Made by a program: the position numbers and the translations under genes | Source of the DNA: Sorex araneus | Lineage: Eukaryota; Chordata; Mammalia; Eulipotyphla; Soricidae | Assembly (NCBI RefSeq): GCF_027595985.1 | Contig: NC_073311.1 | Coordinates: 27,369,892-27,433,891, forward strand | Direction: 5' to 3' | Length of the DNA: 64,000 nucleotides | The notes under the pieces: generated by a model | Database searches by the model: none | The model's input: the letters and a program-made list of their open reading frames with translations, nothing else | What the model was told of the DNA's origin: nothing | Shown here: one piece after another, positions 5,303 to 62,326 of the stretch | How the letters are laid out: each line of letters begins with the position of its first letter | How positions within the stretch are numbered: position 1 is the first letter of the stretch

Positions 5303-5556
5303 TAGCACAGCAGGTAGGGCGTTTGCCTTGCACGTGGCCAACCCAGGTTTTATTCCTTCATCCCTCTCAGAGAGCCCAGCAAGCTACTGAGAGTATCTCA
5401 CCCACACGGCAGAGCTTGGCAAGATACCTGTGGCATATTCAGTATGCCAAAAGCAGTAACAATTGAGTCTCCCAATGGAGACAGTACTGGTGCCTGCTCG
5501 AGCAAATCAATGAGCAATGGGATGAAAGTGATACAGTGATACAGTGATATTTGCTT
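5303..5556 (+). repeat. RTE-tailed SINE (second shrew SINE family), near full length
   Basis: Has the same tRNA-like head as SOR (agcacagcaggtagggcg, 5306 on), but after box B the body is cctct(c)agagagcccagcaagc, gtggcatattcagtatgcc and cccaatggagacagtactgg. It ends with ctcgagcaaatcaatgagca and an 8-base (CAGTGATA)-like repeat instead of poly(A). Confidence 0.85.
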
Positions 5557-7610: not shown

Positions 7611-7757
7611 AACTCGGAGAGCCCAGCAAGCTATGGAGAGTATCTCGCCCTCATGGCAGAGCTAGCCATGGTGTATTCGATATGCCAAAAACAGTAACAA
7701 GTCTCACAATGGAGACGTTACTGGTGCCCTCTCGAGCAAATCAATGAGCAATGGGTA
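7611..7757 (+). repeat. RTE-tailed SINE, head missing
   Basis: Starts in the body (ctcggagagcccagcaagc) and runs through cgatatgccaaaaacag and tcacaatggagacgttact to gagcaaatcaatgagcaatgg. The tRNA-like head is absent and the terminal microsatellite is very short. Confidence 0.88.
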
Positions 7758-12511: not shown

Positions 12512-12780
12512 CAACATAAGAACTGTCACTATCACTGTCATCCCGTTGCTCATTGATTTGTTTGAGCGGGCACCAGTAACGTGTCCATTGTGAGACTTGC
12601 TGTTACTGTTTTTGGCATATAGAATATGCCACGGTAGCTTGCCAGGCTCTGCCGTGCGGGCAAGATACTCTCAGTAGCTTGGCTGACTGTCTGAGAGGGG
12701 TGGAAGAATCGAACCCGGTCAGCTGCATGAAAGGCAAACGCCCTACCGCTGTGCTATCGCTGTAGCCCAACATAAGAACT
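12512..12780 (-). repeat. Full-length RTE-tailed SINE with target-site duplications
   Basis: caacataagaact at 12512-12524 and 12768-12780 are identical 13-base target duplications, so the insert is 12525-12767. On the minus strand: head with tagcacagcggtagggcg, box B in ggttcgattcttcc, the body, then cgctcaaacaaatcaatgag, caacgggatgacagtgata at the 3' end. No poly(A). This fixes the boundaries of the family. Confidence 0.92.
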
Positions 12781-17490: not shown

Positions 17491-18163
17491 TCATCATCAT
17501 CATCATCATCCCGTTGATCGTCGATTTACTTGAGCAGTCTCAGTAACATCTCCATTTGTCCTAGTCCTGAGATTTTTGCAGCCTCTCGTTACTCGTCCTT
17601 CCCAACGGTGACACATTGGAGGCTCTTTCAGGGTCAGGGGAATGAGACCCATCATTGTTACTGGTTTTGGCATATGAATACCCCATGGGGAGTTTGCCAG
17701 GCTCTCCCATGCTGGCAGAAAATTCTTCGTGGCTTGTCAGGTTCTCCAAGAGGGAGAACTAAGCTATAAGAAGCTCCTGCACACTTCCAGGAGCTCAGTT
17801 TTATAATCTCTGGATGTTGGTCCTTGTTGGTATTACATGGCGCTAGGGGCAGTTCGTGGGTGTGGCTGCCAAACTATGGAAAATGGGGGATCTGGGTGGA
17901 GAGGGCCCAGTCCGAATGTGAAGAGGCTTGAAGATCTCAGCCCCGGGTCTCACATATCTGGGTTTCTCTGCTGGTTCCTTCATGTGTGAGGCTACTCTGA
18001 ACGTGTGGAGAGGGGCCTAGAGCATGGCTGTGGCTGGAATCCGGAGGTCTTCAGCTGCCAGGCCTCTGCTCAGGATGGGGAGGGAAACTTCAACCCACCA
18101 CCTCAGAGGGGCTCCGTTGAGGACAGCCAGGCTAGGGGCCAAGAGACTCTGCCTTCTTGGACT
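17482..18163 (-). mobile_element. Long RTE-tailed composite repeat, copy 1, with target duplications
   Basis: ttcttggact at 17482-17491 and 18154-18163 are identical duplications, so the insert is 17492-18153 on the minus strand. Sense order: gcagagtctcttggcc start, about 430 bases of GC-rich body (18100-17770), then a part homologous to the body of the short RTE-tailed SINE (17760-17640), and an end that translates as D-K-W-R-C-Y-W then, one base shifted, I-D-D-Q-R-D-D. A (GAT)n tail closes it. There is no open frame over the length. I read it as a non-autonomous element that uses RTE machinery. Confidence 0.8.
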
Positions 18164-18170
18164 ATTAAAT

Positions 18171-18201
18171 CACTGTCACTGTCACTGTCACTGTCATCCC
18201 G
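18171..18201 (-). repeat. Scrap of an RTE-type tail
   Basis: (CACTGT)n then catcccg is the complement of the cgggatgacagtgacagtg end seen on the RTE-tailed SINE. It lies 8 bases beyond the duplication of the composite repeat, so it is probably an older insertion remnant. Confidence 0.65.
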
Positions 18202-19712
18202 ATTGAGAAATTTCTGGTTGTGAAGAAATAGAAACTACTTTCCATTTCTGTAAAGTAAGAAAAAGTCCACTTAATTAGAACAGGATTGTCAAATTATGAT
18301 ATGCATTTAAATTACTTGAGAATCTTATTAAATTTAAGATTATTATGAGTAAATCTACATGTTCTTAAGGAAATTGAGAAATTGTGGTTGACCTAAGAAA
18401 CATATTTTTAGATCTCTGTAGACCATTTAGTTCCAGAATAATTAGTTAACTATTAGTAAAAGTTGCACATACCTTATTTTATGCAAATGAGTTTTGCATA
18501 AGGAATGAGAAATTGTTTCCCCATCTCTTTTAACATTAGTTATAATGTAAATATTCATTATCCACTAAATATACTTTGCATAATGAAAGTAACTGTTGCA
18601 AAGGATTCTAATTTCATAAAAGCCTTTTACATATTTATCCAATCTAAATAAAGGTCATACTGAATGAAAAGTTCACGCCTGAGAATGAGTAACTGGTTAG
18701 ATTTGCAACCAACCCAGATGCAAGGCCAACTGATGGGTTATGAAATCATTTTAGCAATCCAGGATTATGATGTTGATTTTGGCCAGTCCCTAAAGAATGT
18801 TTGTCCAAATATTCAGGGTAGAGCTGACTTAGGTTTTTTTTTTTGTTTTTTTTGTGCTAGGAGGATGCTTAATAAGAAATCTACAAATCTGTTTCCTAAG
18901 TATTTATTCCTTGGTGCTTAAACTATAAAAGTTTTCCTTTTTTAATTGTATGATTTTTCCTAGACACTTAATCAGATCCATTTCTATAAAATCCCAGGAT
19001 TTGGTCTAAAAAGATAAAGAACTGGAATGACTATCTAGACCTCAACTATTTAAGCAAATCATTATCAAGGACAGATTTATGTTTTCCTGGTCCTATAGAA
19101 TCAATGTCAGTTCACTTCTCTCCAATATAGAAGTCTTCAACCAAATGTTGACTCTGAGTGCTGTAGATTTATAAACAGTGATATCTACTGTGTTCAGTGT
19201 TGGGTGATTCCTATGATCTTTGGTTTTGTGTCGCATGATTTGTTTATGTTTTTTATTAGATAGCTCATACTATATAATTTTCATATCTGATTATAGATGT
19301 TAAATCTTATTTAAGTGGACTTAGATTAAGAAATATCAACATAGAAATCTTACTTTAAAAGCTGAAGACATTTGTGCTTACAGAGGAATAAAAATGATTT
19401 AAAAGTAAATGAAATTTAATAAAATATTTTCTAAATATTATTAAAGATAAATTTAATAAAATGTTGAAGGCTATGCCTAGGTTACCACAAACATTATATA
19501 TGATACCAAGTTACTTACTCACATGATTCATAAATATTTAAAAATGGCTTATTTTTATTTAAAAACTATTTTGGTATACGATACAAACTACATGCACCGA
19601 AACTTATCCAAGCAGAGCAATTCTTGAATATTATGTATTTTGGGCCCTCTTGCTCAATCCTGTGCTGAGCAAGCTACTCTTATTTGTTTCTTGTTTCAGT
19701 TAAAAAGGAAAA
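18202..19712. other. AT-rich DNA, no gene recognised
   Basis: About 1.5 kb with only oligo(T) near 18835. The frame at 18664-18921 contains that T-run as a phenylalanine stretch and is not convincing. Confidence 0.45.
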
Positions 19713-21471: not shown

Positions 21472-21486
21472 AATGGAATCATTTCT

Positions 21487-21742
21487 TTATGGAGCAATAG
21501 CGCAGTGGGTAAGGCATTCTCCTTGCATGAGGCCGACTTGGGTTCGATTCCTCCGTCCCTCTCGGAGAACCCGACAAGCTGCCGAGAGTATCTCGCCTGT
21601 ACAACTGAGTCTGGCAAGTTACCTGTGGCGTATTTGACATGCCAAAAATAGTAACAACAAGTCTCACAATGGAGATGTTACTGGTGCCCGCTCGAGCAAG
21701 TCTATGAGCAATGGGATGGCAGTGATACAGTGATACAGTGAT
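21487..21742 (+). repeat. RTE-tailed SINE, full length
   Basis: tRNA-like head (gcaatagcgcagtgggtaag), exact box B ggttcgattcc at 21541-21551, then body and tail. Positions 21670-21699 translate in one frame as W-R-C-Y-W-C-P-L-E-Q, as in the C-terminus of nematode-like RTE proteins. Ends in gtgatacagtgatacagtgat. A short duplication (tggaatca) may flank it. Confidence 0.93.
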
Positions 21743-22024
21743 GGAATCAACCCAGAAAATTATGGACTCTATCTCTCTGTCAAAGACTGGGAAACTTAAA
21801 ATAGTTGAATGATTTTCTGAAGGGTAAATCATGGGCAAATATTTGATCCAGAAGATTTATTTACATCCAAGCAGTCTAACTCCAGAGTGCAATTGCTTTT
21901 ATTTTAAACTATATTCTTGACACAATTTTGAAGCCTTCTATAAAATTGTTAGCCCCCTTTTTTAAAGCACCTGATCAAATTAATACATTTACATCACTTC
22001 TTAGATTATATATTTTTCAAGTTT
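21743..22024. other. Unassigned DNA
   Basis: AT-rich with no recognised element. Confidence 0.4.
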
Positions 22025-24502: not shown

Positions 24503-25011
24503 TGATCTATCATCATCATCCCGTTGATCGTCGAATTTCTCTAGCAGTCTCAGTAATCTCTCCATTTGTCCTATCCCTGAGATTTTAGAAGCCTCTCTCT
24601 ACTTGGTCTTTCCAACGATGCTGCATTGAAGGCTCTTTCAGGGTCAGGGGAATGAGACCCAGCTTGTCACTGGCTTTGGCATATGAATACACCATGGGAA
24701 GCTTGCAGGAAACTCTCATTAGCGATATCTCATTAGGTTATAAGATATCGCTTCTGGGAGCTTGCTTTTAAGTCTCTGGATGTTGGCCATTGATGGGATT
24801 ACACACACTGGGGTTCCTCTGCTGGTACCTTCATGTGTGAGGCTTGTCCGAACGTGTGGAGATGGGACTTGAGCATGGCTGTGGCTAGGTTCTGGAGGTC
24901 TTTGGCTGCTGGGAGCTCTGCTCGGGGCGGGGAGGGAAGCTGGAGCCCATCCCCTCTGAGGGGCCCCGGAAAAGACAGCCAGGCACGCAAACAAGAGACT
25001 CTCTGATCTAT
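24503..25011 (-). mobile_element. Long RTE-tailed composite repeat, copy 2, with target duplications
   Basis: tgatctat at 24503-24510 and 25004-25011 bounds an insert at 24511-25003. The minus strand starts agagagtctcttg, as in copy 1. It has lost about 200 bases of the middle relative to copy 1 (the mgattacatggcgc to cacacctggg part), and ends with a stretch reading R-D-R-D-K-W-like and I-R-R-S-T-style frames around cgacgatcaacgggatgatg. (GAT)n tail. Confidence 0.78.
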
Positions 25012-25959
25012 GATTTTATAAATCCATTTGCCTTTGTGTTGTACAAACAATATGAAGTAAACTTTGTTTGTGCCTGCAAGGGGTCAGGCTGGGTGGTGGG
25101 TGGAAAACTGAGTACATTGATAGAAGGAAGGTCATGGTGGTGGGATTGCTGTTGAAACACTGATGACCTGAAACAACTTAGTATGGACAATTTGGTAAAT
25201 CACAGTGTTATGATAGAAGGGGGAAGAATAAAATTTATTAGATGATGAAAATAATTACTATAGCATCTAAGCAACTTAAGTACTGTAAATATGTTAGGAT
25301 TCAAACAAATAATTATTTCCACTTGACCACTTGTGCAGAGGATATAAAAGCATTAGTGCTAACTCCCTATGTGTGAGAAGAGTTTATAACATATAAGCTG
25401 TTATTAATTGCTTTTATAGTCTTACACTGGATTTAGAAAATTTATTTTAAATGTTCAAATAGCAAAGACTTTAGGGCCATACTATATTTGTCCCAAGTTC
25501 CCAATTTCTCTCTCAGTGGTTTTAAAATTGGTTGTTAAACTAATGGTTTTGTTTTTTAAATAAAAGCTTACTTACAAAAATAGTCCATAGATTAGGCCCA
25601 TGGATCAAAGTTTGATGACCACCTTCTTAATATGCTCTATTAAAATTTGATCTTCTTTCTCAGTTTTGAATTGTTAGAGTCTTATAAATGGATCCGAGTT
25701 TAGGAAGCATGAGGTCTACCTCCATGAACAAAGAACTCAAAAGTGAGTCAGTCCAAGGTTTGTTGTTCTGCAATAACATTATTTGCATAATTGAGCTAAT
25801 CTTTTCAGGGAAATTGGTGTAGATCTTATAAAGAAACAAAATAGTGCTTTTCTAATACTGGCAGCTTCATAAGACCACTAATTTTCATGCTAATGTTTAT
25901 CTGACATGCTTCTCTGCACTTTCCACTTGCTAGTTTTCAAGTAATCTTTACTCTGGAAG
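25012..25959. other. Mostly single-copy DNA
   Basis: No gene. The first 170 bases carry aaggtcatggtggtgggattgctgttgaaac in pieces, which resembles old L1 3' UTR in sense, but I do not call it firmly. Confidence 0.35.
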
Positions 25960-29262: not shown

Positions 29263-29265
29263 TTG

Positions 29266-29516
29266 TAGTACTGTAGCACTGTCATCCCATTATTCATTGA
29301 TTTGCTCGAGCGGGCACCAATAATATCTCCATTGTGAGACTTGTTACTGTTTTTGGCATATCGAATACACCACAGGTAGCTTGCCAGACTCTGCAGTGCA
29401 GGCTCAATACTCTCGGTAGCTTGCCGAGCTCTCTGAGAGGGGCGAAGGAATCGAACCCAAATCACCAGCGTGCAAAGCAAGTGCCCTACCCGCTGTGCTA
29501 TCGCTCCAGTCCGTTG
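29266..29516 (-). repeat. RTE-tailed SINE, full length
   Basis: Complement of tail (tgtcatcccattattcattg, gctcgagcgggcaccaat), body (ggcatatcgaatacaccac) and head (gccctacccgctgtgctatc, gctccag at 29507). Inserted at or near the 3' end of the MIR. Confidence 0.93.
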
Positions 29517-31925: not shown

Positions 31926-32162
31926 AAATCACTGTATCACTGTCATTCCACTGCTCATTGATTTACTCAAGCAGGCACTGGTAACGTCTCCATTGTGAGA
32001 CTTGCTGCTACTGTTTTTGGCATATCGAATACGCCACGGGTAGTATTCCAGGCTTTGCTGTGCGGGCAGGATACTCTCAGTAGCTTGCTGGGCTCTCCTA
32101 GAGGGATGGAGGAATTGAACCCAGGTAGGATGCATGTAAAGCAAATGCCCTACCCGCTGAGT
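31926..32162 (-). repeat. RTE-tailed SINE
   Basis: Complement: aatcactgtatcactgtcatt tail in pieces, gtctccattgtgagacttg, ggcatatcgaatacgccac, and the head to cctacccgctgag at 32148-32160, where the last ~20 head bases are missing. Confidence 0.92.
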
Positions 32163-34876: not shown

Positions 34877-35130
34877 TTTGGGCACAGTGGTAGGGCATTC
34901 GCCTTTCATGTGGCCAACCCGTATTTAATTCCTCTGCCCCTCTCGGAGAACCCGGCCCCGACAAGCTACCGAGAGTATCGTGCCCACATGCCAGAGCCTG
35001 GCAAGCTACCCATGGTGTATTGGATATGCCAAAAACAGTAATAAATAAGTCTCACAATGAGAGACGTTACTGGTGCCCACTCAAACAAATCAATGAGCAA
35101 TGGGATGACAGTGACAGTGACAGTGAACAA
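34877..35130 (+). repeat. RTE-tailed SINE at the edge of an L1
   Basis: gggcacagtggtagggcatt head (5' end shortened), box B gtatttaattcc (mutated), body with an extra ccccgaca insertion, tail ctcaaacaaatcaatgagca, atgggatgacagtgacagtg ending at about 35127. Confidence 0.92.
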
Positions 35131-35918: not shown

Positions 35919-36117
35919 TTCACTGTATCACTGAATGACTGTCATCCCGTTGCTCATCAATTTGCCCGAGCGGGCACCAGTAACTTCTCCATTGTGAGAC
36001 TTGTTGTTACTGTTTCTGGCATACCAAATAAGCCACGGGTAGCTTTCCAGACTCTGCCACGTGGGTGAGATACTTTCGGTATCTTACCCGGCTCTCCAAG
36101 AGGGGTGGAGGAATCAG
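35919..36117 (-). repeat. RTE-tailed SINE, head missing
   Basis: Complement of tail and body (catcccgttgctcatcaatt, tgcccgagcgggcaccagt, caagaggggtggaggaatc), ending at the box B position. The tRNA-like head was not copied or was lost. Confidence 0.9.
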
Positions 36118-38794: not shown

Positions 38795-39739
38795 TAAATT
38801 TTCTTCACTGTCACTGTCACTGTCATCTCATTGATCAATGATTTGCTCATGCGGGCCCAGTAATGTCTCCATTCATCTTAACCCTGAGATTTTAGCAGCC
38901 TCTTTTTACTTGTCCTTCCCAATGGTGCCACATTAGAGGCTATTCAAGATCAGGGGAATGAGAACCATCACTGTTACTATATTTGGCATATGAATAGGCC
39001 ATGGGGAGATTGCCAGGCTCTCCTGTGCAGGTAGTAAACTCTCAGTAGCTTGCCAGGTTCTCCAAGTGGGAGAACTAGGCTATCAGATGTCAAGTGGCTT
39101 CAAATGCCAGGATAAAACTGGGAGCTTGGTTTTATAGTCTCTGGATGTTGGCCATTGATGGGAGATGGGATTACATGGCGCTGGGAGGTGGGGTGGGGGG
39201 CATTTTCTAGGTGTGACTGCCTAGCTACTGGAAAATGAGGAATCTGGATGAAAGAGGCCCTGTCCCTATCCAAGCAGCTTAGGAGATCTCGGCCCCTGGT
39301 CTCGCACACCTGGGTTCCTCTGCTTGTTCCTACATGCATGAGACTCGTCCGAACATGTGGAGAGTGATCTTGAGCATGGCTGTGGCTGGGTTCTGGAGGT
39401 CTTCAACTGCCGGGGATCTGCTCAGGGCAGGGAGGGAAACTCAATCTACACCCTCCGAGGGGCCTGGGTGAAGATAGCCAGGTGTGAGGGCAAGAGACTC
39501 TGTGTCGCCCGCTTCCAGGAGCTTGGTTTTATAGTCTCTGGATCTTGGCCATTGGTGGGATTACACGGCTCCAGCCACAGTTTCTGTGTGTGACCGCCTA
39601 GCTGGAAAATGGGGGATATGGGTGGAAGAGGCCCAGTCCTGATCTGAGCAGCCTTGGAGATCTCGGCTCTGGGTCCCACACACCTGGGTTTCTCTGCCGG
39701 TTCCTTCATGCGTGAGGCTCATCTGAGTTAAATTTTCTT
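38795..39739 (-). mobile_element. Long RTE-tailed composite repeat, copy 3, with internal tandem duplication
   Basis: taaattttctt at 38795-38805 and 39729-39739 bounds an insert at 38806-39728. The 3' end (low coordinates) is (CAGTGA)n plus gatcaatgagatgacagtg-type sequence, so its tail follows the hexamer type, not (GAT)n. The 5' region holds the unit ggagcttggttttatagtct twice, at 39121 and 39518, a repeat offset of 397 bases. The 5' end is truncated inside the second unit. Confidence 0.8.
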
Positions 39740-45803: not shown

Positions 45804-46073
45804 AACAAACCTCTATAGCACTGTAGCACTGTCATCCTACTGTTCGTCAATTTGCTCTAGTGGGCACCAGTAACATCTCCATTGTGAGACTTGTTGTTAC
45901 TGTTTTTGGCATATTGAACACACCACAGGTAGCTTGCCAGGCTCTGCCGTGTGGGTGGGATACTCTCGGTAGCTTGCTGGGCTCTTTGAGAGGGACGGAG
46001 GAATCAAATACGGGTCAGAACATGCAGGGCAAACACCCTACCTGCTGTACTCTTATGTTTTAACAAACCTCTA
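45804..46073 (-). repeat. RTE-tailed SINE with 12-base target duplications
   Basis: aacaaacctcta at 45804-45815 and 46062-46073 is identical. The insert 45816-46061 is a full-length copy on the minus strand with tail, body and head (gggcaaacaccctacctgct). Confidence 0.93.
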
Positions 46074-46479: not shown

Positions 46480-46628
46480 ACAGTCACTGTCACAGTAATC
46501 CCATTGCTCATTGATTTGCTCGAGAGGGCACCAGTAACATCTCCATTGTGAAACTTGTTGTTACTGTTTTTGGCATATTGAATACACAACATACATGGGT
46601 AGCTTGCCAGGCTCTCTGAGAGGGGAAG
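46480..46628 (-). repeat. RTE-tailed SINE with internal deletion
   Basis: Complement: cactgtcacagtaatcccat, gctcgagagggcaccagtaa, ggcatattgaatacacaac, then a jump to ggtagcttgccaggctctct and gagaggggaagag. The GC-rich middle and the head are missing. Confidence 0.85.
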
Positions 46629-51077: not shown

Positions 51078-51985
51078 TGAGTGTGTCCACAACCAGTGTT
51101 TGCACAGATATGGGGAGAAGGCAATTCCCCTTCACTGCTGGTGGGAATGCCAACTGGTTCAGCCTTTTTGAAAAATAATATGGACATTTATCAAAAAACT
51201 AGAAATTGAGCTACCATTTGACTCAGCATTATCACTTCTAGAAATATATCCTGGAGATAAAATACAGTAGTAATGACATCTGCACTTGTATGTTTATTGC
51301 TGCATAATTTATAATAGCCAGAATCTGGAAAAATGTTGAGTGCCCGAGATCTGATGACCGGTTAAAGAAACTTTGGTACATCTACACAATGGAATACTAT
51401 GCAGTTGTTAGAAAAGATGAATCAGGAAATTTGCATATAAGTGGATCAACATGGAAAGTATCATGCTAAGTGTAATGAGTCAGAGAGAGAGGGGGACAGA
51501 CATAGAATGACTGCACTCATTTGTGGAATATAAAGTAACAGAATGGGAGACTAACACCCAAGGATAATAGAGATAATGGCCAGGAGGATCACTCCATGGC
51601 TTGGAAGATGGCTTCACATGCTGGGGGAAAAGGCAGCTGGGATAAAGGTAGGTCCACTAAGTGAATGATGCTTGGAGGGCTAACTTGAGATGGGAGATGT
51701 GTGCTGAAAGCAGACTATAGAACAAACATGATGGCCACTTATTATTTGTATTGCAAACCATAACAGTCAAAAGGAGAGAGAGAGAGTTAAAGGGAATGTG
51801 ACTGTCACAGAGGTGGGGGGCAGGGGGGAAGGTGGTGGTGGATGGGGGAGATGGTGGGAGGGATATTGTGAACATTGGTGATGGAGAATGGACACTGGTG
51901 GAGGGATGGGTACTCAATTCGTGATTACATTTTAGTCATAACGAAAGTTTGTAAATCTGTAACTATCTCAGGGTGATTTATTAAT
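51078..51985 (+). mobile_element. L1 ORF2 C-terminus and 3' end
   Basis: Plus strand keeps the C-terminal Cys-rich region (Q-C-L-H-R-Y-G-E near 51095, L-H-C-W-W-E-C near 51135, Q-P-F near 51160), then I-Y-T-M-E-Y-Y near 51385. The 3' UTR follows, with the G-rich stretch 51810-51870 and ggagggatgggtactcaatt, to gtaactatctcagggtgat at about 51980. The frame is broken by stops; the first Cys of the box is replaced or shifted. Dead, older than 60451-62057. Confidence 0.9.
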
Positions 51986-52095
51986 ATATATGCATATATA
52001 TATATATCACTGTCACCATCACTGTCATCCCATTGCTCATCGATTTGAGCGGGCACCAGTAACGTGTGAGACATAGTGATATATATATATGGAAA
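51986..52095 (-). repeat. Tail-only RTE-type SINE fragment between AT repeats
   Basis: (TA)n at 51984-52006, then tcactgtcaccatcactgtc, atcccattgctcatcgattt, gagcgggcaccagtaacgtg (52007-52068). Only the last ~60 bases of the SINE were inserted, consistent with strong 5' truncation. A second (TA)n follows. Confidence 0.85.
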
Positions 52096-52210
52096 AAAAA
52101 AAAGAATTACTGCTGGTGGTGCTTGGGGAACCAAGTGAGATTTTGGGGATTGAACTCAGGTCAGCATGTTCAAGGCAAATGCCCTAAGTGCTATAGTATC
52201 ACTTGTCCAC
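52096..52210 (-). repeat. SOR-like SINE, partial
   Basis: T/A-run boundary at about 52092-52103, then gaattactgctggtggtgct, ggattgaactcaggtcagca, aatgccctaagtgctatagt. Body and head on the complement. Confidence 0.75.
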
Positions 52211-58303: not shown

Positions 58304-58930
58304 GTAAAAAAATCTTTAAAGAGGATCAGAGGTGCAAGATGATGATGTAGTGGACCACTGCCCAGCCCCGGCTGCCTCAGGCATACATGGCGCCATGGAG
58401 ATTCTCAAACATTAAAACAAACATATATTAGGAAAGAATCAGAACCATAGTAGCCATTTTAGGTAATATGCTTCTGCTGCTCCTTTCGAGCCTTGTCTCG
58501 TCTGTGCTCCTCATAAGTACCATCATCCGTGGGCAGCTCATGGCGGCACCTGGGGCAGGAATTTGTCTTGGTGAGCCAGGGCAGAATGCAGCTGGAATGG
58601 AAGAGATGCTGGCATGGCATCTCAACGGCCGTCTCCTCCTCCTCCTCAAATTCCAAAAGACACACAGGGCCCCTGAGCTCAGCCTGGTAAGCCCTGATGA
58701 CTGTCCTGGGCAGATTCTCAACCACGGTCTTGGCAGCAGGTTGGGGGTAGCTGGGGATCCCAATCTACGACTACGAAGCCCCAGTCTTTCAAGTCCATCC
58801 TATTGAACAGCCAGCGAGCGAGCTCCAGCAGCCTGTGGCTTCCGGTGTCCTGCTCGCGCCCCACCGGCTCGCAGTCGTGCTCATCAGAATAAGACGACAC
58901 GGCCGCCGGCTGCCTGACACAGCCCTGGAG
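58304..58930 (-). pseudogene. RNF181: RNF181 processed pseudogene (RING E3 ubiquitin ligase), interrupted by an insertion
   Basis: The intronless minus strand matches RNF181 (about 153 residues in humans). N-terminal part 58900-58718 ([21 protein letters not shown]), frameshift near 58720, then [10 protein letters not shown] and the RING finger (58660-58530: [22 protein letters not shown]) and [10 protein letters not shown]. The start codon is GTG (58898-58900) instead of ATG. The first zinc-binding Cys of the RING is Gly, and one Glu is added. About 50 foreign bases (58419-58468) split the last residues (E-N-L-H-G-A-M-Y-A near 58385-58410). RNF181 ubiquitinates proteins with an E2; this copy cannot. 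Imperfect 15-16 base duplications (atcatctc(t/c)ttctttt-like at 58055 and 58931) support retrotransposition. Confidence 0.93.
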
Positions 58931-60480: not shown

Positions 60481-62057
60481 TATAGTTTATTTTTAATTAG
60501 TGAGTCAACGTGAGGGTACAGTTACAGATTTATACATTTTTGTGCTCATGTTTCTCCCTTACAAAGTTTGATAACCCATCCCTTCACCAGTGCCCATTCT
60601 CCACCACCAGTAAACCCAACATCCCACCCCCCCTTCCCAGTCCCGTCTCCCCCCACCCCACACTGCCACTATGGCAGGGTATTCCCTTTTGTTCTTTCTC
60701 TCTGATTAGGTGTTGTGGTTTGCAATAAAGGTGTTGAGTGGCCATTGCGTTCAGTCTCTAGTCTATATTTGGCCCGCATCATCTTTCCCCCACATGACCA
60801 ACAACCACATTTTACTTGCTGTTCCCTTCTCTGAGTTGCCCAGGATGAGAGAACAGCCTCCAAGCCATGGTGACAACCTCCTGGTACTTATTTCTACTAT
60901 TCTTGGGTGTTCGTCTTATAGTCTATTATTCTATATTCCACAGATGAGTGCAATCTTTCTATGTCTGTCTCTCTCTTTCTGACTCATTTCACTTAGCATG
61001 ATACTTTCCATGTAGAACCACTTATATGCAAACGTCATGACCTCATTTTTTCTAACAGCTGCATAGTATTCCATTGTATATATGTACCAGAGTTTCTTCA
61101 ACCAATCATCTGTTCTAGGGCACTCGGGTTTTTTCCAGATTCTGGCTATTGTAAACAGTGCTGCGATGAACATATAAGTGCAGATGTCACTTCGACTATA
61201 CTTTTTGGCTTTTCTGGGATATATTCCCAGCAGCGGTATTGCTGGGTCAAATGGGAGCTCAACCTCAAGTTTTTTGAGAATTGTCCATACTGTTTTCCAA
61301 AAGGGCTGAACTAGCCGGCATTCCCACCAGCAGTGTAGAAGGGTCCCTTTCTCCCCACATCCTCTCCAACAGCGGTTGCTTTTGTTCTTTTGGATGTGTG
61401 CTAGCCTCTGTGGTGTGAGGTGGTATCTCAAAGTTGTTTTGATCTGCATCTCTCTGATGATTAGTGATGTAGAGCACTTTTTCATGTGTCTTTTGGCCAT
61501 TCGTATCTCTTCCTTGGTAAAGTTTCTGTTCATTTCTTCGCCCCATTTTTCGATGGGGTTGGATGTTTTCTTCTTGTAGAGTTCAACCAGTGCTTTATAT
61601 ACCCTTGATATCAACCCCTTATCTGATGGGTATTGTGTAAATATCCTTTCCCATTCTGTAGATAGTCTTTGTATTCTGGTCGCTGTTTCTTTTGCTGTGC
61701 AGAAGCTTTTTAGTTTAATGTAGTCCCATTTGTTGATCTCTGTTTTTACTAGATTGCTTAGTTCCGTGTCATCTTTGAAGATACCTTTATCTTCAATATC
61801 CTGGAGGGTTTTGCCTACCTTGTCTTCAATGTACCTTATGGTTTGTGGTCTGATGTTGAGGTCTTTAATCCATTTTGATCTGACTTTTGTGCATGGTGAC
61901 AGATCGAGTTCTAAGCCCATTTTTTTGCATGTGGTTGTCCAGTTGTGCCAGCACCATTTGTTAAAGAGACTTTCCTTGCTCCACTTCACATCTCTTGCAC
62001 CTTTATCAAAGATTAGATGATCATACCTTTGAGGTTGTGTGTGGGGATATTCCACCC
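60451..62057 (-). mobile_element. Young 5'-truncated L1 with open ORF2 C-terminus
   Basis: A 29-base-plus poly(T) (reverse A-tail), 3' UTR (60480-60930) and then an uninterrupted ORF2 3' part on the minus strand from 62057 to the stop at 60931, about 375 codons. Visible: W-S-K-E-S-L-F-N-K-W near 61960, I-F-T-Q-Y-P-S-D-K-G near 61630, H-M-K-K-C-S near 61490, the Cys box C-W-R-G-C...H-C-W-W-E-C near 61370-61320, and Y-I-Y-T-M-E-Y-Y near 61075. Endonuclease and reverse-transcriptase domains are missing, so it cannot move. Perfect 16-base duplications (60435-60450, 62058-62073) and the open frame show a recent insertion. Confidence 0.97.
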
Positions 62058-62073
62058 TAGAACAGTAATTCTT

Positions 62074-62326
62074 AATTGGAGCTGACAGTGTCCCCCAAAG
62101 GACATTTTTTTCATGTATGAAGAAAATTTTGATTATTGTAGTTAGTGCCAATTTTGAGGAATTTCAGAGCAGAGAGTTACTGAAAAACATTAATACAAAC
62201 AAGTTCAATAAAGATAAAATAGCATGGACATTAAGCATTGCGAAGTCAGAGGCTGGGTCTTTCTAATAGTAACCATATCTTGCACAATATAGAAATTAAG
62301 TAAGTATTTGCTGAGTAAATATCTTC
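62074..62326. other. Unassigned DNA
   Basis: The L1 open frame continues 31 codons upstream into this flank (to 62151) by chance. No gene. Confidence 0.5.

Follow-up and report, generated by a model that had tools for sequence, protein, structure and literature searches.

The SINE copy at positions 21487–21742 (+) belongs to a tRNA-Ala-headed family that is built from three parts: a tRNA head of the SOR type, a piece of the 5′ UTR of an RTE LINE, and the 3′ end of this LINE. Ten full or partial copies of the family occur in the window, by which the whole stretch of 64 kb that was analyzed is meant. The three-part make-up follows from the match of the body to the LINE 5′ UTR and of the tail to the LINE 3′ end; the LINE 5′ UTR origin of the middle was overlooked in the original prediction, which had described a head in common with SOR and a tail derived from the RTE protein end. 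With a probability of roughly 0.93, the family was assembled within the shrew lineage from the head of a host SINE and a nematode-type RTE LINE with an internal deletion. A new element family seems to have emerged from the arrival of a worm-type LINE; the proposal that the transfer had created a new family of SINEs is supported in that the host head and both LINE parts were matched in the same genome.

Layout of the SINE and its tRNA-Ala-like head

The given copy is flanked by a 9-bp target-site duplication, ATGGAATCA, at 21473–21481 (left, +) and 21741–21749 (right, +), with eight unexplained bases (21482–21489) between the left duplication and the head. The head spans 21490–21551 (+) and is nearly that of SOR up to the B box at 21541–21551. 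The body, placed by the alignment of the refined SINE consensus with the LINE 5′ UTR consensus, spans 21550–21660 (+), and the tail—the last LINE codons, the stop region, and (GTGATACA)n—spans 21668–21742 (+), as judged by the match to the LINE 3′ consensus. The tail hence closes in a microsatellite and not in poly(A), as had been foreseen. The other copies in the window lie at 5303–5548 (+), 34882–35126 (+), 31928–32159 (−), 12530–12768 (−; target-site duplication of 14 bp), 29264–29512 (−; target-site duplication of 11 bp), and 45813–46051 (−; 12-bp direct repeat at its ends), and three partial ones at 7613–7755 (+), 35920–36115 (−), and 46484–46614 (−). Target-site duplications of 9–14 bp are present in four of the eight copies examined; they were sought in the other four as well, where none is clear. 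A search of the 2.4-Gb assembly with the SINE gave 7948 first-look candidates, and all 40 that were scored match. The mean divergence of 26 SINE copies is 0.064 (non-CpG K2P), in a sample that is biased because it includes copies from up to seven loci picked by likeness to the given copy. In a separate comparison of the window copies, eight of the 10 differ by 8–18% at non-CpG sites, and two partial ones (7540 and 46440), which are poorly aligned, by 32% and 35%.

The head is predicted to be of the polymerase III type, with a putative promoter box in the given copy, the B box GGTTCGATTCC. ARAGORN detects a tRNA-Ala-like head in one SINE copy (29437–29508) and in three SOR copies, and the SINE head at 29438–29507 reaches the Rfam tRNA threshold; a scan of the window at the Rfam gathering thresholds, including ribozymes and other RNA families, returns this one tRNA match and nothing else. 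The refined head consensuses of SOR and the SINE show three differences over approximately 66 bases, all of them at CpG sites as judged by eye. The two heads coincide up to the B box and diverge right after it, in agreement with the common head that had been claimed; beyond this point, the SOR body and A-rich tail are absent from the tRNA-Ala-headed SINE. The SOR (Sor) SINE of shrews, as described in passages of PMC11240701 and PMC8608897, is thus similar in having nearly the same tRNA-Ala-like head and differs from the RTE-tailed SINE in its own body and A-rich tail. The forward shrew-SINE primer given in PMC8608897 matches the window exactly at four places and the searched part of the reverse primer at one, the matches being SOR copies, and the best match of the probe given there has two mismatches.

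SOR copies occur in the window beside those of the SINE. The divergence of 53 SOR copies has a mean of 0.137 and a median of 0.094. At 2555–2785 (−) and 51980–52203 (−), RTE tails stand immediately after SOR sequence; the former looks like a SOR body fused to an RTE tail, where a target-site duplication was sought and not found, and the latter could reflect the insertion of a truncated copy into an AT repeat. The window also features two open frames. The one at 58462–58764 (−) contains a RING finger (PF13639), is perhaps a processed retrocopy, and presumably resembles RNF181; the one at 60934–62163 (−) comprises 410 codons and is taken, by likeness, to be part of L1 ORF2.

The RTE LINE and its pieces in the SINE

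The partner LINE is present at the left edge of the window as a 5′-truncated, decayed copy (L009) at 1–1488 (−), which covers part of the reverse transcriptase and terminates at its 3′ end immediately beyond the left boundary of the window. In this left flank, the 3′ end reads LARDRDKWRHYWHAL, two stop codons, IEDQQEDM, and a further stop codon. The divergence of this copy is 0.102. Protein searches with the LINE pieces at the edge yield 994 matches at E ≤0.001; among the 120 listed, 115 carry nematode names and five are nameless, and none is named as a vertebrate. The listed matches include Haemonchus, Necator, Nippostrongylus, Ancylostoma, Heligmosomoides, Parelaphostrongylus, and Angiostrongylus, all of which we take to be strongylids. 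The LINE protein ends in KWRRYWRPLEQIEDQRDYK followed by the stop codon, much like the RTE proteins of strongylid nematodes. The C-terminal pattern xW[RK]xxW[RY]PL-9 residues-R is found in 24 of the 120 listed proteins in 16 distinct forms, e.g., EWRRYWRPLEQIDDQRDDR, and most of the nematode C-termini examined carry QRDD.

A search of the 2.4-Gb assembly with the nematode RTE protein P0009 gave 118,152 first-look candidates, of which 80 were scored, and 159 matches, with an amino-acid identity to P0009 of 67–81% among the matches listed. We retrieved the 20 copies of lowest E-value together with upstream sequence and aligned them at their 3′ ends. Their 3′ consensus ends in RDRDKWRRYWRPLEQIEDQRDYK and the stop codon; the latter is located within the terminal repeat (AAGTGATAC)n, and the LINE hence has next to no 3′ UTR. 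The mean divergence of the copies from the consensus is 0.032 substitutions per non-CpG site (range 0.013–0.117), in a sample biased toward the best-kept copies. Because the SINE and LINE samples are both biased, the divergence figures give no order of birth.

Several further observations concern the LINE loci. The listed matches to P0009 mostly fall into two stretches that are broken at residues ~204–207 with approximately 80 extra bases in between—perhaps because the nematode gene model includes an erroneous intron—and the two best matches are unbroken. At four of the 20 loci (L035, L047, L048, and L049), an upstream 5′ piece of the LINE is inverted relative to the 3′ part, a pattern expected from twin priming, and a short inverted 5′ piece lies upstream at L042. 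In viral contigs, the exact tail pattern was not found, and the RTE protein pattern gave two matches, neither of which was confirmed. The LINE is very probably RTE1_Sar, with which it was matched by description: PMC6542046 describes a nematode-like RTE that is abundant in the shrew genome and that is, unlike the SINE, an autonomous LINE.

The body of the SINE is a piece of the LINE 5′ UTR. The refined SINE body and the 5′ UTR consensus are identical at 104 of 111 positions without gaps, with a score of 187; 1000 letter shuffles reached at most 29. This consensus was derived from six of the 20 LINE copies (L030, L033, L034, L037, L039, and L044), in which the 5′ UTR and the 3′ end are oriented alike; L033 lacks part of the 5′ UTR. 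The piece starts approximately 110–140 bases inside the stretch common to the LINE copies and, hence, does not represent the extreme 5′ end of the LINE.

The tail of the SINE features the predicted frame W-R-C-Y-W-C-P-L-E-Q at 21670–21699 (+), a remnant of the RTE C-terminus that continues with V-Y-E-Q-W-D-G-S in the given copy. The continuation expected for the family, I-D-x-Q-R-D-D, is not read from the majority consensus of the 10 window copies, which has I-N-E-Q-W-D-D-S, and it emerges as I-D-E-Q-R-D-D-S when CpG decay is undone by eye. A 19-residue profile built from 16 different C-termini of nematode RTE proteins scores the SINE consensus at 56.7 and the given copy at 45.3, far above the best of 5000 dinucleotide shuffles of each (29.7 and 32.3, respectively), which bears out the assignment of the tail to the RTE C-terminus. 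Run over the whole window in six frames, the profile has as its top nine matches tails of the tRNA-Ala-headed SINE, with scores of 38.9–62.8—the highest belonging to the partial copy at 35920–36115 (−)—and as its tenth a longer element with 31.8; the best score in 20 window shuffles is 27.2. In addition, tblastn with eight of the 120 listed proteins finds the LINE copy at the edge and the C-terminal 15–26 residues in nine SINE tails; the SINE-tail matches are each weak alone (best E 0.002), and other matches are weak and scattered. Since three of the 10 window copies carry an in-frame stop (45884, 29334, and 31995), no function is seen for this frame, which is a leftover of the coding end of the LINE.

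At the nucleotide level, the likeness between SINE and LINE tails begins at AATGGAG and is absent further upstream. The refined SINE consensus shares 64 of 70 aligned bases with the consensus of 20 LINE copies; for the given copy, the count is 60 of 70. Single LINE tails range from 85% (52/61, L038) to 93% (63/68, L040) identity to the refined SINE tail, and only L034 matches it without gaps (62/68). The terminal repeats are (GTGATACA)n in the SINE and (AAGTGATAC)n in the LINE. An identity of more than 80% had been anticipated over the last 150 bases of the LINE; this level is exceeded against the LINE consensus through the coding end, stop, and terminal repeat, with the match extending over only ~70 bases. 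Compared with the decayed edge copy L009 alone, the consensus tail stays just under 80%, at 79% (49/62, one gap), and the given copy reaches 74% (46/62). The shared tail folds no better than shuffled sequence (z of −0.39 for the SINE and 0.17 for the LINE). The coding end reads QRDYK in the LINE consensus compared with QRDD in the SINE, and the GATGAC form occurs in only two of the 20 LINE copies (L031 and L034); hence, the direct parent of the SINE was probably an older or side lineage of the LINE.

Origin of the SINE and of a longer non-autonomous family

A longer element in the window carries the same two LINE pieces as the SINE, with the 5′ UTR region in a longer cut. Its three copies are located at 17495–18165 (−), with a (GAT)n tail and a target-site duplication of 10 bp; at 24505–25020 (−), with an 8-bp direct repeat at the ends; and at 38805–39730 (−), with a (CAGTGA)n tail and a target-site duplication of 11 bp. 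The last 19–23 codons of this element correspond to the RTE coding end, with scores of 41–52 in the individual copies and of 44 in the consensus, compared with a best in 100 shuffles of 30 for the consensus and 35 for the third copy. The longer element has diverged further from the LINE than the SINE has and is therefore probably older. Its approximately 100 extra bases were also considered as LINE coding end in a frameshift-tolerant alignment; this assignment was rejected, as 154 of 200 shuffles scored equally, and these bases match the LINE 5′ UTR instead. A bare RTE 3′ stub of about a dozen bases and (CAGTGA)n adjoins the longer element at 18170–18205 (−).

Other explanations for the LINE-like parts of the SINE differ widely in their plausibility. 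Chance or simple-repeat likeness as the source of the tail match is so improbable that it is already refuted: The tail finishes in short repeats and the match extends over just ~70 bases, but the alignment of the unrefined SINE consensus with the LINE 3′ consensus has 63 of 70 identical bases, two one-base gaps, and a score of 95, whereas 1000 letter shuffles reached no more than 27. The likeness also persists in the ~50 bases preceding the repeat, and the nine top profile matches in the window are all SINE tails. It is likewise very unlikely that mammals inherited the RTE vertically as an old LINE of their own, with no transfer behind the SINE. Among the 120 listed protein matches (of 994), 115 are strongylid, five are unnamed, and none has a vertebrate name, and the 20 best LINE copies, a sample biased toward well-kept ones, lie on average 0.032 per non-CpG site from their consensus. 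Horizontal transfer of an RTE of this kind between strongylid nematodes and Sorex araneus is described in PMC6542046, which reports no RTE hits in reads of hedgehog, solenodon, and mole and an absence of RTE1_Sar from the other mammals searched there; the word SINE does not occur in the main text of that article. The horizontal acquisition of the partner LINE, which had been part of the original prediction, is backed by both the nematode-like proteins and the published transfer.

The body could also have moved in the opposite direction, as a shrew repeat that was captured into the LINE 5′ UTR after the arrival of the LINE; in this case, the LINE-derived portion of the SINE would be limited to its last ~70 bases. 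The longer element speaks for this possibility by carrying a more diverged version of the body piece (144/186, 107/133 with 11 gaps, and 139/184 to the LINE 5′ UTR in the three copies). We consider it unlikely, as the piece is embedded in a longer stretch that is common to the six LINE copies and continuous with the downstream coding part. Moreover, the cut is shorter in the SINE and longer in the longer element, as deletion products would show, and this build fits the AviRTE SINEs described in PMC4844689.

Assembly of the SINE from a host head and an internally deleted LINE is, hence, the preferred reading. As a host family supplied the head and the LINE the rest, the parts were most likely joined in the shrew lineage, once the LINE had entered. 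We infer that the SINE could arise only after this entry, an order that rests on logic and on the printed record. The tRNA-Ala-like head shared with SOR suggests that the SINE would be transcribed by RNA polymerase III. The LINE reverse transcriptase may then recognize the SINE RNA by its last ~70 LINE-derived bases and the short terminal repeat, as the shared 3′ end implies, and would copy it into a nicked target site by target-primed reverse transcription—a route consistent with the build, the terminal repeat, and the target-site duplications.

The two non-autonomous families may have a single source. We give even odds to the view that a single LINE transfer from a parasitic nematode led to at least two such families—the tRNA-headed SINE and the longer element—both composed of LINE 5′ UTR and 3′ pieces and both keeping the QRDD coding end that is lost in the present LINE consensus (QRDYK). 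If true, the SINE and the longer element would form a record of the LINE as it first arrived.

Comparison with known RTE-derived SINEs

Similar RTE-derived SINEs are already known in birds and ruminants, and the shrew SINE adds a new case. A description of a tRNA-Ala-headed, RTE-tailed SINE was not found in a search of the open-licence literature. The 2013 table of SINE/LINE pairs in PMC3747384, which includes Bov-tA, Bov-A2, and the AfroSINEs, contains no shrew pair in its table passage, and the word shrew is absent from the text. In this case, the host is a mammal, which made a parasite-type transposon into a repeat family of its own, and a single genome still shows all three parental components. 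The case is relevant to the recruitment of a foreign LINE by a SINE, and SINE sites in other shrews offer a way to date the transfer.

The ruminant SINE Bov-tA, as listed in Table 1 of PMC3747384, is similar to the shrew SINE in combining a tRNA head with the tail of an RTE-type LINE. It differs in its tRNA-Glu head and in its partner, which is Bov-B and not a nematode-type RTE; Bov-B itself is thought to have been horizontally transferred, according to a passage of PMC13295347. Bov-A2 is listed in PMC3747384 with the 5′ end of BovB and, hence, parallels the longer element.

The SINEs mobilized by AviRTE in birds (ManaSINE1 and others) combine, as described in PMC4844689, a head with a bipartite tail that stems from the 5′ and 3′ UTRs of an RTE common to birds and parasitic nematodes. 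They share with the shrew SINE the order of promoter head, LINE 5′ UTR piece, and LINE 3′ piece as well as the lineage-specific emergence. However, they belong to another RTE family and to other hosts, and their heads are derived from tRNA-Glu, 5S, or 28S or are GC-rich (PMC4844689). The shrew SINE, in contrast to those described there, has taken its head from SOR, a SINE of its host, and its shared 3′ part includes the last codons of the LINE. Taken by analogy, the builds based on AviRTE in birds and Bov-B in ruminants suggest that RTE LINEs make such derivatives readily.
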